From Dehalococcoidia bacterium (GTDB lineage: Bacteria > Chloroflexota > Dehalococcoidia > Tepidiformales > Tepidiformaceae), in the NCBI GenBank assembly GCA_020850615.1, contig JADZEI010000021.1:62001-126000 (forward strand): 64,000 nucleotides of DNA, written 5' to 3'. The notes under the pieces are model-generated. The model was not told the DNA's origin. It did not search any database and saw only the letters and a list, made by a program, of their open reading frames with translations. Positions 20,445-49,188 of this stretch are shown in pieces. Position 1 is the stretch's first letter; every line of letters starts with the position of its first letter. The translations under genes and the position numbers were made by a program.

Positions 20445-20630
20445 CTAGAGGGCGGCGTTGATCTGGCCGAGCTTGCCGTCGATGCTCGTGCCCATGAGGG
20501 TCAGGGCGCCGATGCAGACGACAGCGATGAGGGCGAGGATCAGGCCGTATTCGGCGAGGCCCTGGCCGTCTTCGCGGCTGGCCTGGAACTTGGCGACGGA
20601 CTTGAGAGCGGCGTTGCGAATCTTCGACAT
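20445..20630 (-). CDS. flp: Flp type IVb pilin
   Basis: The 61-aa major pilin of the Tad system. The leader is MSKIRNAALKSVAKFQASREDG. Cleavage is expected at G before QGLAEYGLILALIAV, which has the Glu-Tyr pair that is typical of Flp pilins, and the hydrophobic helix continues through VVCIGALTLMG. A good ribosome site (AAAGGAAGAGG) lies upstream. It is the first gene of the tad operon and is followed by a terminator-like hairpin. Confidence 0.95.
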   Translation of the reverse strand: MSKIRNAALKSVAKFQASREDGQGLAEYGLILALIAVVCIGALTLMGTSIDGKLGQINAAL

Positions 20631-44739: not shown

Positions 44740-44768
44740 TTGACGCGGGTGTGTGCGCTGATTAGTGT
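44740..44768 (+). promoter_or_regulatory. Probable promoter of the LDI-like operon
   Basis: TTGACG (44740-44745) and TAGTGT (44763-44768) are 17 bases apart, 65 bases before the first GTG of the operon. Confidence 0.5.
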
Positions 44769-44833: not shown

Positions 44834-45025
44834 GTGTCTGCTGCGTCGCTCGTCACTGCCGCCGTCGCCATCGTCCTGGCCGTCCTTGCGTCGACGCTCG
44901 ACGTGGCGGCCTGGGCGGAGAACGCGCTCTGGCTGGCAGCTCTCGGCGTTGGCACGCTTGCCCTGCTGTTCGCCTACGGCGTCGCAATCACCTGGACCCG
45001 GCGGCGAAAGCGCCTCTGGGGATAA
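44834..45025 (+). CDS. Small two-helix membrane protein, first gene of the LDI-like operon
   Basis: The 63-aa protein has helix 1 LVTAAVAIVLAVLASTLDVA, a short loop, helix 2 LAALGVGTLALLFAYGVAIT and a basic tail WTRRRKRLWG. It follows GGAGGG and lies 25 bases before the large membrane protein, with which it is surely co-transcribed. I recognise no family; it could be a small subunit or chaperone of the enzyme next to it. Confidence 0.6.
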   Translation: MSAASLVTAAVAIVLAVLASTLDVAAWAENALWLAALGVGTLALLFAYGVAITWTRRRKRLWG

Positions 45026-45050
45026 GCCCGCGAACCAGGGAGGAGCCGCC

Positions 45051-47198
45051 ATGGCCTCACAGCCCGCAAGCATCCCGACGAGCGGAAACCTCCTGCGCGA
45101 TCCCGCGGCCATCTTCCGGATCCCGTCCGTCGCCCGGTGGGGGTCCGTCCGCCGGCGCTACCTGCTGCGCTCGGCCGTCCTCGCCACGCTGCTCGTCGTC
45201 GCCGCATTCGTGCTCATCTTCGCGGTCGATTCGTCGTACGCGACCGCTGCCGGCATCTCGCTCATCGTCCCGGGAGGCGGGTTTCTGTACGACGCCTGGC
45301 CGATCCTGTTCGTCGCCACGTGGCTGTGCTGGTGGCTGGCGTGGAGCTTCTGGGTGGGTTTCGGGTCGATCTTCCACCTGGGCGTGGTCTACCTGGCCCA
45401 GCTCATCGGTGGCATCGCGCTCGCGGAAGGGCCCCGGCTCGGTGTCGCCAGCGGGACGAACTGGGACTGGGCTATTCCCGTCCTCCTCCTCGGGGCGGCG
45501 CTGTATGTCATCCAGCACCTGGTGCGCTGGGAGCGTGGCTACCGCCGCGCCGTCAGGACGCGTGCCGACCGGAACGCGTATCTCGCATCGATGCCTGCGC
45601 CGGCGCGCGAGAAGCTGGTCGAGTCCTTCGAGGCGCCAGCCGTCCGGCAGGCGGAGCGGCCATTCGACCCGCTCGCTGTCGAAGAAGGACAGCCGCCGCT
45701 GCCAGTCGGGGACGCCGATGCGGCGCTCGTCAGCTGGCTTCTCAAGCTGAGCCTGCAACCCGTGGACTCGTTCGAAGGCTGGGACTGGCGCCCGGGGCCC
45801 TTCGAAGACAGCGCGCTCCGCTACCAGGTCAACGATGTCGGCTACGCCCTTGCCTACCTGCAGGCGAACTACGTCCCGGCCTACCCGAGCCTGTACGGGC
45901 AGGCGCAACGGAACGTGATCGAACGCGCGCAGAGCCGGAAGGTCTGGGGGTACTGGTTCCTCGAAAACTTCTGGGGGAACCTGACGATGAACCCGGACCC
46001 CATCCGGGGCGCGCGGTTCCAGAACATCATGTTCGGCGGCTTTCTCGCGAAACACCTCGCACACTACGAAGCCTCGACGCACGATCACCGGTACGACGAG
46101 CCCGGGTCGCTCGTCTTCGTGTGGAAGGATGGACGCACGTTCAGCTATAGCTATGAGGACATCGCCGAGCACTGCTCGCAAGCCTTCGCGGAGTCACCGC
46201 TTACGCTGTGGCCGTGCGAGCCGAACCAGGTGTACATGATCTGCAATCAGCAGGGCGCAGCCGGTGTCAGCGGATTCGACGCACTGCATGGGACCGACTA
46301 TTGGGCGCGCGTGAAAGAACGCTACCAGGCGGCCCTGGATACCGAGTGGATGAAGCCGAACGGTGACTACTACGGCCACTACAACACTCGCCTGGGGATG
46401 AACGTCGGCTCGCTGGGCTGGAACGACGGCACGACGCCGATGTTCATGGACGGCAACGGCGCGATCGCAGGGAGCGGCCGGACGATGTCGCCGGAGGCTG
46501 CGGCGCGGCTCTTCGCCCTGAGCGGGAGCTCGGAGATGTGGGCGCACCTCCCGATCGAGAACGGCCGCATGCGGCTGCCCGCGCCCGCACCGCGAAAACG
46601 AGCGGGGCTCTTCGACTGGAGTTACTGGCGCTGGCGGATGCCGTCGCCGAGGCACTTCCTTTCCGGCGCCTGGGTCGACCTGACCGAAGGCGGCGTGTGG
46701 CCGATGGGCGGCCATACGAACGTGCCGGCATATGCGTCCATCGCCGACTCGGCACGCCAGTACGGGTACGACGACGTCGCCGACGCGGCGATCCGGGGCC
46801 TCGACGCGGACAGCTTCCTCGGCAAGGATGCGCCGCGCCCGTACAACTGCCGCCTCTCGTTCGTGACCACCGCCTGCCGCGCCCGCTGGGGGCGGCTGTA
46901 CAAGGGCGACGACTTCCTGACCGCGCGGATCCCGAAGTATGAAGGGCCAATCCTGGCCAGCGCGCCGCACCCGGAAGTGCTGGTGACCTATGCGAACGGA
47001 CGCGATGGCGAGCTCTGCCTCACGCTGGAACCCACCGTGGCGCCCGGGAGCTTCCCGCTCGCGTTCGAACGCCTGCGGCCGAACACCGCCTACGTCATCG
47101 AATCCAATGGTGCGACGTTCACGACGTCGGACACGGGCGCCGGCGAAGCCAGCATCGACCTCGCGGGCAGGGTGACGACCATCGTGCGCCCGGTCTAG
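45051..47198 (+). CDS. Membrane-anchored linalool dehydratase/isomerase-like protein
   Basis: The first 160 or so residues of this 715-aa protein are four to five helices (LRSAVLATLLVVAAFVLIFA, WPILFVATWLCWWLAWSFWV and others). The rest is an alpha/alpha-barrel that follows the linalool dehydratase-isomerase (LDI) of Castellaniella: SFEGW, RKVWGYWFLENFWG, FQNIMFGGFLAKH, WPCEPNQVYMICNQ and DALHGTDYWARV. The LDI Cys pair 9 residues apart is kept (C389, C398), but the catalytic His position is Phe331. The substrate is probably a hydrophobic alcohol or alkene, or the fold is used in another way. Confidence 0.8.
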   Translation: MASQPASIPTSGNLLRDPAAIFRIPSVARWGSVRRRYLLRSAVLATLLVVAAFVLIFAVDSSYATAAGISLIVPGGGFLYDAWPILFVATWLCWWLAWSFWVGFGSIFHLGVVYLAQLIGGIALAEGPRLGVASGTNWDWAIPVLLLGAALYVIQHLVRWERGYRRAVRTRADRNAYLASMPAPAREKLVESFEAPAVRQAERPFDPLAVEEGQPPLPVGDADAALVSWLLKLSLQPVDSFEGWDWRPGPFEDSALRYQVNDVGYALAYLQANYVPAYPSLYGQAQRNVIERAQSRKVWGYWFLENFWGNLTMNPDPIRGARFQNIMFGGFLAKHLAHYEASTHDHRYDEPGSLVFVWKDGRTFSYSYEDIAEHCSQAFAESPLTLWPCEPNQVYMICNQQGAAGVSGFDALHGTDYWARVKERYQAALDTEWMKPNGDYYGHYNTRLGMNVGSLGWNDGTTPMFMDGNGAIAGSGRTMSPEAAARLFALSGSSEMWAHLPIENGRMRLPAPAPRKRAGLFDWSYWRWRMPSPRHFLSGAWVDLTEGGVWPMGGHTNVPAYASIADSARQYGYDDVADAAIRGLDADSFLGKDAPRPYNCRLSFVTTACRARWGRLYKGDDFLTARIPKYEGPILASAPHPEVLVTYANGRDGELCLTLEPTVAPGSFPLAFERLRPNTAYVIESNGATFTTSDTGAGEASIDLAGRVTTIVRPV

Positions 47199-47204
47199 GC
47201 GGAC

Positions 47205-48554
47205 GTGCCCGGCGCCGCCATCGACACCCGCATGCCACCGGGGCCGCTCCTGTCCCGGGCGGTGTTCCGGGTGCCGATCGTGGTCGTCTTCGTCGCGCTC
47301 GATGTCGCGGCGCTCGGGTTGCTGCCGCTGCCGGAGACCCTCGTGGCGGTGTCGCGCAGCGCGATCGCACCCGGGCTTGGGCTTTTCCCGGAAGAGGTGG
47401 GCGTGGCCATCGGCCTGCTCGTGACAGCGCTCGTGTGCACCTGGGCGTGGTTCCGCTGGGGCGCCGTGTGGCCGATGGTCGCAACGTGGTGGCTCAGCAT
47501 CGTCCTCACGGTCCGCGCCGTCCCGACCGGGGAGCACACGCATGGGGCAGCGGCCGGGGTCCTCGCGCCCGATCGGGTCCTCGCCGTACACGAGTTCACG
47601 TGGTTGATGGCGGTCTACCTGCTGGTCTACTGGGCGGGGACGCTGGTGCGCCGGATCCCGTTCGTGGAGCACCTCGCATCCGTGCGGCAGCGGCGGCGCC
47701 CGGCCGACGCCTCAGCGATCACGCAGCTGCCGCTCCCCGACCGGGCGCGGGCCGTGTCGCTCTGGGAGATCGCACGGCGGGCCGGCGGCGCAGCGCCACC
47801 GCGCGACTTCCTCCGGCAGGCACTTGGTGACCCCGCTCATGACCGCGGACGACGGCTGGTCGCGTTACTCGGCCGGGCGGCGTTGCGCGATCCGGTGCGC
47901 GACGACAACGCGCACGTCCGTGCCGCGATGGTGCTGGTGGGCGGCGACGACAGGGACGCCCCGGGAGCTGCCCGGCGAGCGCGGCTGGGGATGCCAGCGA
48001 GCGAGCCCGGCTGGGTGCAGCTCCTCGACGGCACGTTGCTCGCGGCCGCGCTCGCGCCAGTCGATCCCGGTGCCGGGCGCCGCTGGGCGTATGCCATGGA
48101 GCACTGGTTCGCGCTGCGGCATGGTCACCGGCCCGAGGCGCGCCACGAGATAGCCGGCATCGCCAGGGGCCGGGCACCGGCATGGCAGCACGCCACGGCT
48201 GCGGTCGTCGCAGCGATGAACGGCTGGGTTGAGCCGCGCAGCGAGTGGGACGCGCTGCGGCCACAGGTGCTCGCCGCGGTCGGGCGAGGCGGCCGGCGGA
48301 CCGACGACAACCGGCTCATCGCGGCCGGCCGCTGCTGGGCCGCGATCCTGGACGACCCCGAGGCGACGCGCCTGCTGGCACGTGTCACGAGCTCGCCGAG
48401 GGACCCGTTCGCACAGGCCCTGGAGTCGCTATCGGCGGCCCTTCGGACGCACGCGGGTGCGCGAGCAGTGGACGCCGCCGGCGCGAAACCTGCCCTCCAG
48501 CTGCACGCCGGGGTAATCCCGGCGCCGGCCCCGAACCTTCACCCACATCGATAG
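47205..48554 (+). CDS. Membrane protein of the LDI-like operon
   Basis: The 449-aa protein has about four helices in the first 160 residues (VPIVVVFVALDVAALGLLPL, VGVAIGLLVTALVCTWAWFR, WLMAVYLLVYWAGTLVRRIP) and then a helical, Arg/Ala-rich soluble half with paired motifs such as AAMVLVGGDD, EHWFALRHGHRPEARHEIAG and GRCWAAILDDPEATRLL. The layout, helices plus an alpha-helical barrel-like part, mirrors the preceding protein, although the sequence is different and no LDI motif is seen. It starts six bases after that gene. Function unknown. Confidence 0.65.
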   Translation: MPGAAIDTRMPPGPLLSRAVFRVPIVVVFVALDVAALGLLPLPETLVAVSRSAIAPGLGLFPEEVGVAIGLLVTALVCTWAWFRWGAVWPMVATWWLSIVLTVRAVPTGEHTHGAAAGVLAPDRVLAVHEFTWLMAVYLLVYWAGTLVRRIPFVEHLASVRQRRRPADASAITQLPLPDRARAVSLWEIARRAGGAAPPRDFLRQALGDPAHDRGRRLVALLGRAALRDPVRDDNAHVRAAMVLVGGDDRDAPGAARRARLGMPASEPGWVQLLDGTLLAAALAPVDPGAGRRWAYAMEHWFALRHGHRPEARHEIAGIARGRAPAWQHATAAVVAAMNGWVEPRSEWDALRPQVLAAVGRGGRRTDDNRLIAAGRCWAAILDDPEATRLLARVTSSPRDPFAQALESLSAALRTHAGARAVDAAGAKPALQLHAGVIPAPAPNLHPHR

Positions 48555-48570
48555 GCGAAAGGAGTCTCAC

Positions 48571-48672
48571 ATGTCTGAGCCGAGTTCCGATTGGCCCGTC
48601 ACCGCAGCCTTCGCGGTGGTCGCGCTGCTGCTCCTGGCCGGGGCGATCGTCAGTGCCATCCGGCTGATGTAG
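48571..48672 (+). CDS. 33-aa single-helix microprotein
   Basis: The frame reads MSEPSSDWPVTAAFAVVALL followed by LLAGAIVSAIRLM. A very good ribosome site (AAAGGAG, six to seven bases before the ATG) and a position 16 bases after the preceding gene support it as the last member of the operon. It is a one-helix membrane peptide. It is too short for a family call. Confidence 0.6.
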   Translation: MSEPSSDWPVTAAFAVVALLLLAGAIVSAIRLM

Positions 48673-49188
48673 CGGGTGCGCGTGGCGCCGATGGGAGCTG
48701 CCATGCTGTTCGCGCGGGCGTCCCAGCACTCGCCGTTAGGAGTCGTTCGACCAGCTCCTCAACCCAGGACCACGTAGGCCAGGGCGACGACGGCGAGCCC
48801 GGCGAGCGACGCGATCACGGCGACCGAGGTGATCCGATTCGCCCGCTTGAGCTCACAGAGCTCGCCGTCGGACGCATCAGGCTATCGAGCCGCAGCTCGA
48901 AGACGCAGCCGCAGGATGACCCCGAGCACGCCCCCGAACAGGGCCGCTATGCCGAAGAACACCAGCACGGGCACCATCAGCGCACGCCCTTCCCGGCCCG
49001 CGGAGTCGGTCGAATCGTCATCTGGCGCATCATCATACCGTTCGTAGGGAGCGGGATCTGTGCAAGGAGTGCTTCGAGCAGGTTCGTCCGGGCGACCAGC
49101 TCGGGCTGCGGGAACCACTGTGAGCGGCGCGCACGCACCGCCAGGCCCGGTCCGTGGTCTGGTACAGTCCCGGAGCAGGGAGGAGCGC
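48673..49188. other. Intergenic region after the LDI-like operon
   Basis: About 515 bases. It holds the interrupted two-helix ORF at 48759-48977 on the minus strand; the flanks 48673-48758 and 48978-49188 show no other supported gene. Confidence 0.6.
48759..48977 (-). pseudogene. Two-helix membrane protein split by an in-frame TAG
   Basis: The frame from ATG 48977 gives MVPVLVFFGIAALFGGVLGV and ILRLRLRAAAR, then TAG at 48882-48884. The same frame continues as PDASDGELCELKRANRITSV and AVIASLAGLAVVALAYVVLG, ending at TGA 48759. The two halves make one sensible 72-residue hairpin membrane protein: two helices with a charged loop. A CAG-to-TAG change would explain it. It could be a pseudogene, a sequencing error or a readthrough gene; the first half alone (31 aa) could also be a microprotein. 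Confidence 0.45.

Follow-up and report, generated by a model that had tools for sequence, protein, structure and literature searches.

A divergent membrane-anchored protein of the linalool isomerase type in a Dehalococcoidia genome, and a conserved M-x-C-C microprotein near the genes of its relatives

The present study analyzes a four-gene unit at positions 44,834 to 48,672 of a 64,000-nucleotide stretch of a Dehalococcoidia bacterium genome (assembly GCA_020850615.1, contig JADZEI010000021.1, positions 62,001 to 126,000; this whole stretch is called the window below). The second gene of the unit encodes P0002, a protein of the linalool dehydratase-isomerase (LDI) family. Judged from its sequence and its place in a tree, P0002 is a deep and divergent member of the membrane-anchored type represented by the linalool isomerase (Lis) of Thauera linaloolentis, and it extends the full membrane LDI type to another bacterial phylum. 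A second result, which is of more value than the unit itself, concerns the relatives of P0002: near most of their genes there is a gene for a membrane microprotein that begins M-x-C-C, appears to be undescribed, and is most likely a dedicated accessory subunit, as an assembly or redox partner, of the membrane LDIs. Enzymes of the LDI type convert linalool, geraniol and myrcene into one another and also dehydrate further allylic alcohols, which makes them interesting to alkene producers. The four-gene unit is real; the open reading frames (ORFs) and sizes given in a first-pass annotation of this DNA were all confirmed, every one on the plus strand, as follows:

44834..45025, plus strand: P0001, a 63-aa two-helix membrane protein and an orphan; GTG start, two hydrophobic helices, no homologue beside other LDI loci.
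45051..47198, plus strand: P0002, a 715-aa membrane-anchored LDI/Lis-type enzyme by Pfam Ldi match, tree and model; ATG start.
47205..48554, plus strand: P0003, a 449-aa membrane protein with a helical soluble half and an orphan; GTG start, no Shine-Dalgarno (SD) site.
48571..48672, plus strand: P0004, a 33-aa one-helix peptide and an orphan; ATG start, strong SD site.

P0002 has a membrane domain and, in its model, an LDI-type barrel, which is the composition that had been read from the letters at first pass. The protein matched Pfam Ldi (PF18566) with E 7.6e-59 and 200.2 bits against a curated cut-off of 26.1, and the family profile matched the structures of the Castellaniella defragrans LDI with E 5.9e-42. 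An AlphaFold model based on a 36-sequence alignment (predicted local distance difference test, pLDDT, 82.7; predicted template modelling score, pTM, 0.87) aligned with LDI 5i3t_B over 328 residues with a VIA Z of 30.4 and a root-mean-square deviation of 3.2, the next-best folds, at Z 18.4, being sugar-active enzymes with the same type of barrel. The LDI domain is real, and the structural check that the first-pass annotation had named came out in its favor, with the barrel placed on the LDI fold. Four parts of P0002 were delimited:

45144..45590, plus strand: membrane domain, residues 32-180, with four helices and a PGGGF motif (helix prediction, model, alignment).
45690..46937, plus strand: LDI-type (alpha/alpha)6 barrel, residues 214-629 (by the match to 5i3t_B).
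46215..46244, plus strand: putative catalytic cysteine pair C389-E-P ... C398-N, corresponding to LDI C171 and C180 (LDI alignment).
46947..47195, plus strand: C-terminal beta domain, residues 633-715, beyond the LDI match (secondary structure of the model).

The cysteine pair was invariant in 42 of 42 aligned proteins, LDI M125 corresponded to M327 in the alignment, and the PGxGF motif of the membrane domain was retained. The LDI cysteines have been assigned to acid/base catalysis (PMC6600392), and the LDI active site has been listed, in a numbering shifted by one, as H128, Y44, D38, C170 and C179 (PMC12455561). The C. defragrans enzyme (LDI/LinD of strain 65Phen; PDB 5i3t, 5g1u and 5hlr) resembles P0002 in its (alpha/alpha)6 barrel and in the equivalents of M125, C171 and C180, but it is soluble and periplasmic, with a signal peptide, H129 and a capping disulfide (C48-C101), whereas P0002 is membrane-anchored, carries F331 in place of H129, continues into an additional C-terminal beta domain and has D239, in the pairwise alignment, where the first cysteine of the disulfide would be. 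The likeness to Lis of T. linaloolentis 47Lol (ENO87364; EC 5.4.4.4) extends further. Lis was described in 2016 (Marmulla et al.) as an inner-membrane enzyme of 644 aa with four transmembrane helices within the first 139 residues followed by a cytosolic LDI-like domain, isomerising geraniol and linalool, with its activity located in the inner membrane (PMC4791888). Both Lis and P0002 have a four-helix N-terminal membrane domain, an LDI domain, a C-terminal extension, the cysteine pair and an aromatic residue at the position of LDI H129, and the two are 30% identical over P0002 residues 11-714 (the lis locus is L025). Lis differs in belonging to another phylum, in its atu cluster and in an M-x-C-C gene on the same contig; P0002 differs in its long branch, in lacking an atu cluster or M-x-C-C gene and in its three orphan companions. 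The premise of the first-pass annotation that the known LDI is soluble and periplasmic holds for C. defragrans but leaves out Lis, and the membrane-bound form that it took for a new type is already known through Lis, hence not new (PMC4791888).

Beyond this genome, membrane-type LDI genes were found at 78 loci, the majority belonging to Pseudomonadota and Actinomycetota, with 75 from a scan of genome contigs with an alignment and three from plasmids; the same scan using P0002 alone confirmed nothing. In the tree P0002 fell inside the membrane-type clade (79 rows; Shimodaira-Hasegawa-like approximate likelihood ratio test, SH-aLRT, 100), on a long branch of its own. No other full-length relative of P0002 was found in 393 genomes of the class; LDI-domain-only relatives occurred in two of these, and one further genome gave a weak short match.

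The M-x-C-C microprotein gene was found near the membrane-type LDI gene in 66 of the 78 loci, that is 63 by script, L034 and L075, which had been excluded only through the delimitation of the LDI ORF, and L033, which is cut by a contig end. The scan accepted ORFs starting M-x-C-C with a hydrophobic start, and hence the two cysteines were a search condition while the remainder of the consensus, M-A-C-C-[VI]-[ILF]-A-A followed by about 15 mostly hydrophobic residues and R-R, was not. Lengths ranged from 24 to 166 aa. On the two strands of the 75 contigs 68 ORFs satisfied these conditions, almost all of them located at the LDI gene, compared with seven in shuffled sequence. Examples are:

L018:8720-9109, L069:7884-8009, L071:7454-7591 and L159:2934-3317: M-x-C-C microprotein genes, with about 60 more.

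Position varied, the microprotein lying close to the LDI gene either upstream or downstream and directly adjoining it in many lineages, with four actinobacterial copies about 1 kb downstream, behind another gene. In L017 the gene between the two encodes a CtaG-like membrane protein (L017:8951-9802, PF09678, E 3e-39), and in L050, L058 and L068 the microprotein is likewise about 1 kb away. Two membrane-type LDI genes each were present at L044, L029 and L076, with an adjacent M-x-C-C ORF at both genes in L044 and at one gene in each of the others. In T. linaloolentis, where no copy adjoins the LDI gene, the microprotein (E 4e-8) is encoded on the lis contig (L159:2934-3317), 7.7 kb before lis, between the genes for an AMP-binding enzyme and an enoyl-CoA hydratase; on the published map atuH and atuC are 3.5 kb apart, and the genes in that interval are labelled hypothetical (PMC4847356). 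Of 150 genomes from relatives of a Sphingobium, 10 matched the microprotein profile; these same 10 had LDI matches that include the membrane domain, and the other 140 had neither, including three with LDI-domain-only matches. In the 10 genomes the microprotein was on the LDI strand and within about 400 nt, the LDI match of G774 being split over two contigs. The probability of 10 of 10 against 0 of 140 is about 9e-16 by chance if the genomes are independent, which they are not fully, and some of the 150 are close to those behind the microprotein and LDI profiles. No M-x-C-C microprotein was found at the LDI-domain-only loci. Nor was there one in the window, and no significant match was obtained in this genome, which is 95% complete, or in G742, G743 and G746, three genomes with a membrane LDI. 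Apart from a fusion at L088, the tested microproteins had no significant Pfam or NCBIfam match, the profile had no match in PDB, and none of the open-access papers searched combined linalool isomerase, a small protein and a subunit. The idea of dedicated microproteins that had been advanced for the unit seems to hold for the family at large, although the protein that is conserved differs from those in the unit and was not found in the window.

As to function, we think it reasonably probable, if far from certain, that P0002 is a membrane-anchored Lis-type enzyme that isomerises allylic terpene alcohols, an activity predicted, like its topology and substrate class, from these comparisons. Reduced C389 and C398 in the barrel would serve as acid/base groups, helping the allylic hydroxyl to leave and then to re-add at the opposite end of the allyl system, so that tertiary and primary allylic terpene alcohols of the linalool/geraniol type would be interconverted, with the substrate drawn from the bilayer. 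Since no microprotein was found in the genome, P0002 would work alone or would use unrelated partners of its own. Several observations weigh against this assignment. LDI H129 is replaced by F331, although the active Lis has W at that position; LDI D38 and Y44 could not be assigned reliable equivalents; P0002 lacks the proline of the APxxVWLG motif (position 110), which is otherwise near-invariant; identity to Lis is low and the branch long. Furthermore, the surroundings of the gene show no recognisable cluster for terpene catabolism, and two CoA-transferases near the unit are uninformative because the 4.2-Mb genome (G000) has 73 matches to family III (CaiB-type) CoA-transferases, an unusually high number, in view of which these enzymes and the nearby short-chain dehydrogenase/reductase (SDR) were dropped as pathway evidence.

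An alternative explanation, possible although we regard it as rather less than even, is that P0002 serves the metabolism of membrane lipids and not the breakdown of monoterpenes, using its LDI fold and cysteine pair on some other hydrophobic alcohol such as a polyprenol or a longer isoprenoid alcohol. This would account for the missing terpene cluster, and it is consistent with two arrangements among the relatives. The Aureimonas cluster (L019:3799-6948) runs from a cis-prenyltransferase gene through the genes for the LDI and the microprotein to one for a DagK-type kinase, and at L088 (L088:7671-8168) a single protein joins the M-x-C-C segment to a kinase domain of the prokaryotic diacylglycerol type (PF01219, E 1e-30), both hinting that some membrane-LDI members make or salvage isoprenoid alcohols and do not degrade them, with a possible link to an isoprenoid-alcohol kinase at these two loci. 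Against it, many relatives are found among genes for alcohol and aldehyde dehydrogenases, AMP-binding ligases, CoA-transferases, enoyl-CoA hydratases and TonB receptors, and linalool isomerase is the only membrane member to have been characterised (PMC4791888).

The first-pass annotation had gone beyond the enzyme to propose that the four proteins form one new membrane complex. On that view P0001, P0003 and P0004 would be genuine P0002 subunits, and they might take the place of the M-x-C-C microprotein that other members have. We consider this unlikely. The gaps between the genes are short (25, 6 and 16 nt) and all are on the plus strand, the three companions are all predicted membrane proteins, and the usual microprotein partner was not found in this genome. 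In addition, the membrane half of P0003 aligned with the membrane domain of P0002 with an hhalign P of 3.3e-4, the best among the window's other proteins. However, one in 100 hydropathy-preserving shuffles scored above that alignment, and P0003 as a degenerate P0002 paralogue is for that reason only suggestive. Conserved gene order, which had been named as a check, was not seen: none of the 78 further membrane-type LDI loci had beside it an ORF resembling P0001, P0003 or P0004, and no convincing homologue of P0003 was found in 393 genomes of the class, 201 genomes of the phylum, plasmids, phages, Pfam, NCBIfam or PDB. A P0003 match in G064 (E 1e-6) was rejected as homology because it was short and confined to one stretch, the single-sequence model of P0003 (pLDDT 43) was too poor for a structure search, and P0001 and P0004, considered as hidden M-x-C-C proteins, gave no match. 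Moreover, Lis itself was purified, and its gene is separated from its neighbors by more than 150 bp (PMC4791888). With no convincing homologue of the companions where searched and no conserved gene order, the complex is unsupported, the layout being its sole basis, and a subunit role for the three proteins is a guess.

The companions are nonetheless probably co-expressed with P0002 and membrane-bound. The G+C content at third codon positions (GC3) was 0.81-0.88 across the four genes, which is coding-like but at the low edge for the window, where other long genes mostly had 0.88-0.96. The window contained only four intergenic ORFs of 25-80 aa that combined an SD site with a strong hydrophobic helix, namely P0001, P0004, a 61-aa ORF at 20445-20630 and 48882-48977 on the minus strand, and since this pairing is so rare among intergenic ORFs the small ORFs of the unit are unlikely to have arisen by chance. 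The last of the four, a 31-aa one-helix ORF with an SD-like site, lies just downstream of the unit. The good ribosome sites reported at first pass are clear for the P0001, P0002 and P0004 genes but not for that of P0003, which is preceded by no SD-like sequence (..GGTCTAGGCGGAC-GTG) and whose translation would have to be coupled to termination at the LDI stop codon, 6 nt before it. The promoter called probable there is reduced to a weak candidate, below threshold in a scan of the window that scored a promoter-like site only upstream of dnaN:

44740..44768, plus strand: weak sigma-70-like promoter candidate, TTGACG-17-TAGTGT, 8/12 match, read from sequence.

Returning to the M-x-C-C microprotein as an accessory subunit of membrane LDIs, its cysteines would be exposed at the outer face of the membrane by the positive-inside rule, and its occurrence on either side of the LDI gene argues against a leader peptide. 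It is improbable that the microprotein merely belongs to the same pathway, or is a common regulator, and happens to be inherited along with the membrane LDI. The distance of about 7.7 kb from lis in Thauera, the actinobacterial copies behind a CtaG-like gene and the three membrane LDI genomes with no microprotein match could be read in that way, but its direct adjacency to the membrane LDI in many lineages, its exact tracking of that enzyme in the 150 genomes and the failure to find it with LDI-domain-only proteins speak against it. The stronger proposal, that membrane LDIs are two-component enzymes needing the microprotein for activity and that the lineage of the window replaced it by unrelated membrane proteins, is in our view doubtful. 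Recombinant Lis, expressed in Escherichia coli from lis alone, reached the membrane without activity, for which the authors suggested misfolding as the cause (PMC4791888); a missing membrane partner would explain this result, and so would misfolding. The conserved microprotein makes the need of the E. coli-inactive membrane LDI for a partner directly and cheaply testable, and P0002 provides a natural case in which the usual partner is missing or replaced.

The unit is flanked by dnaN upstream and by genes for a DUF1801 protein and the SDR downstream. Across the family dnaN is conserved, but what follows it downstream is not. In G001, of the same family, dnaN and the DUF1801 gene are separated by a heliorhodopsin gene (L121:9891-10853, PF18761, E 1.5e-101), in the place held by the LDI unit in the window.

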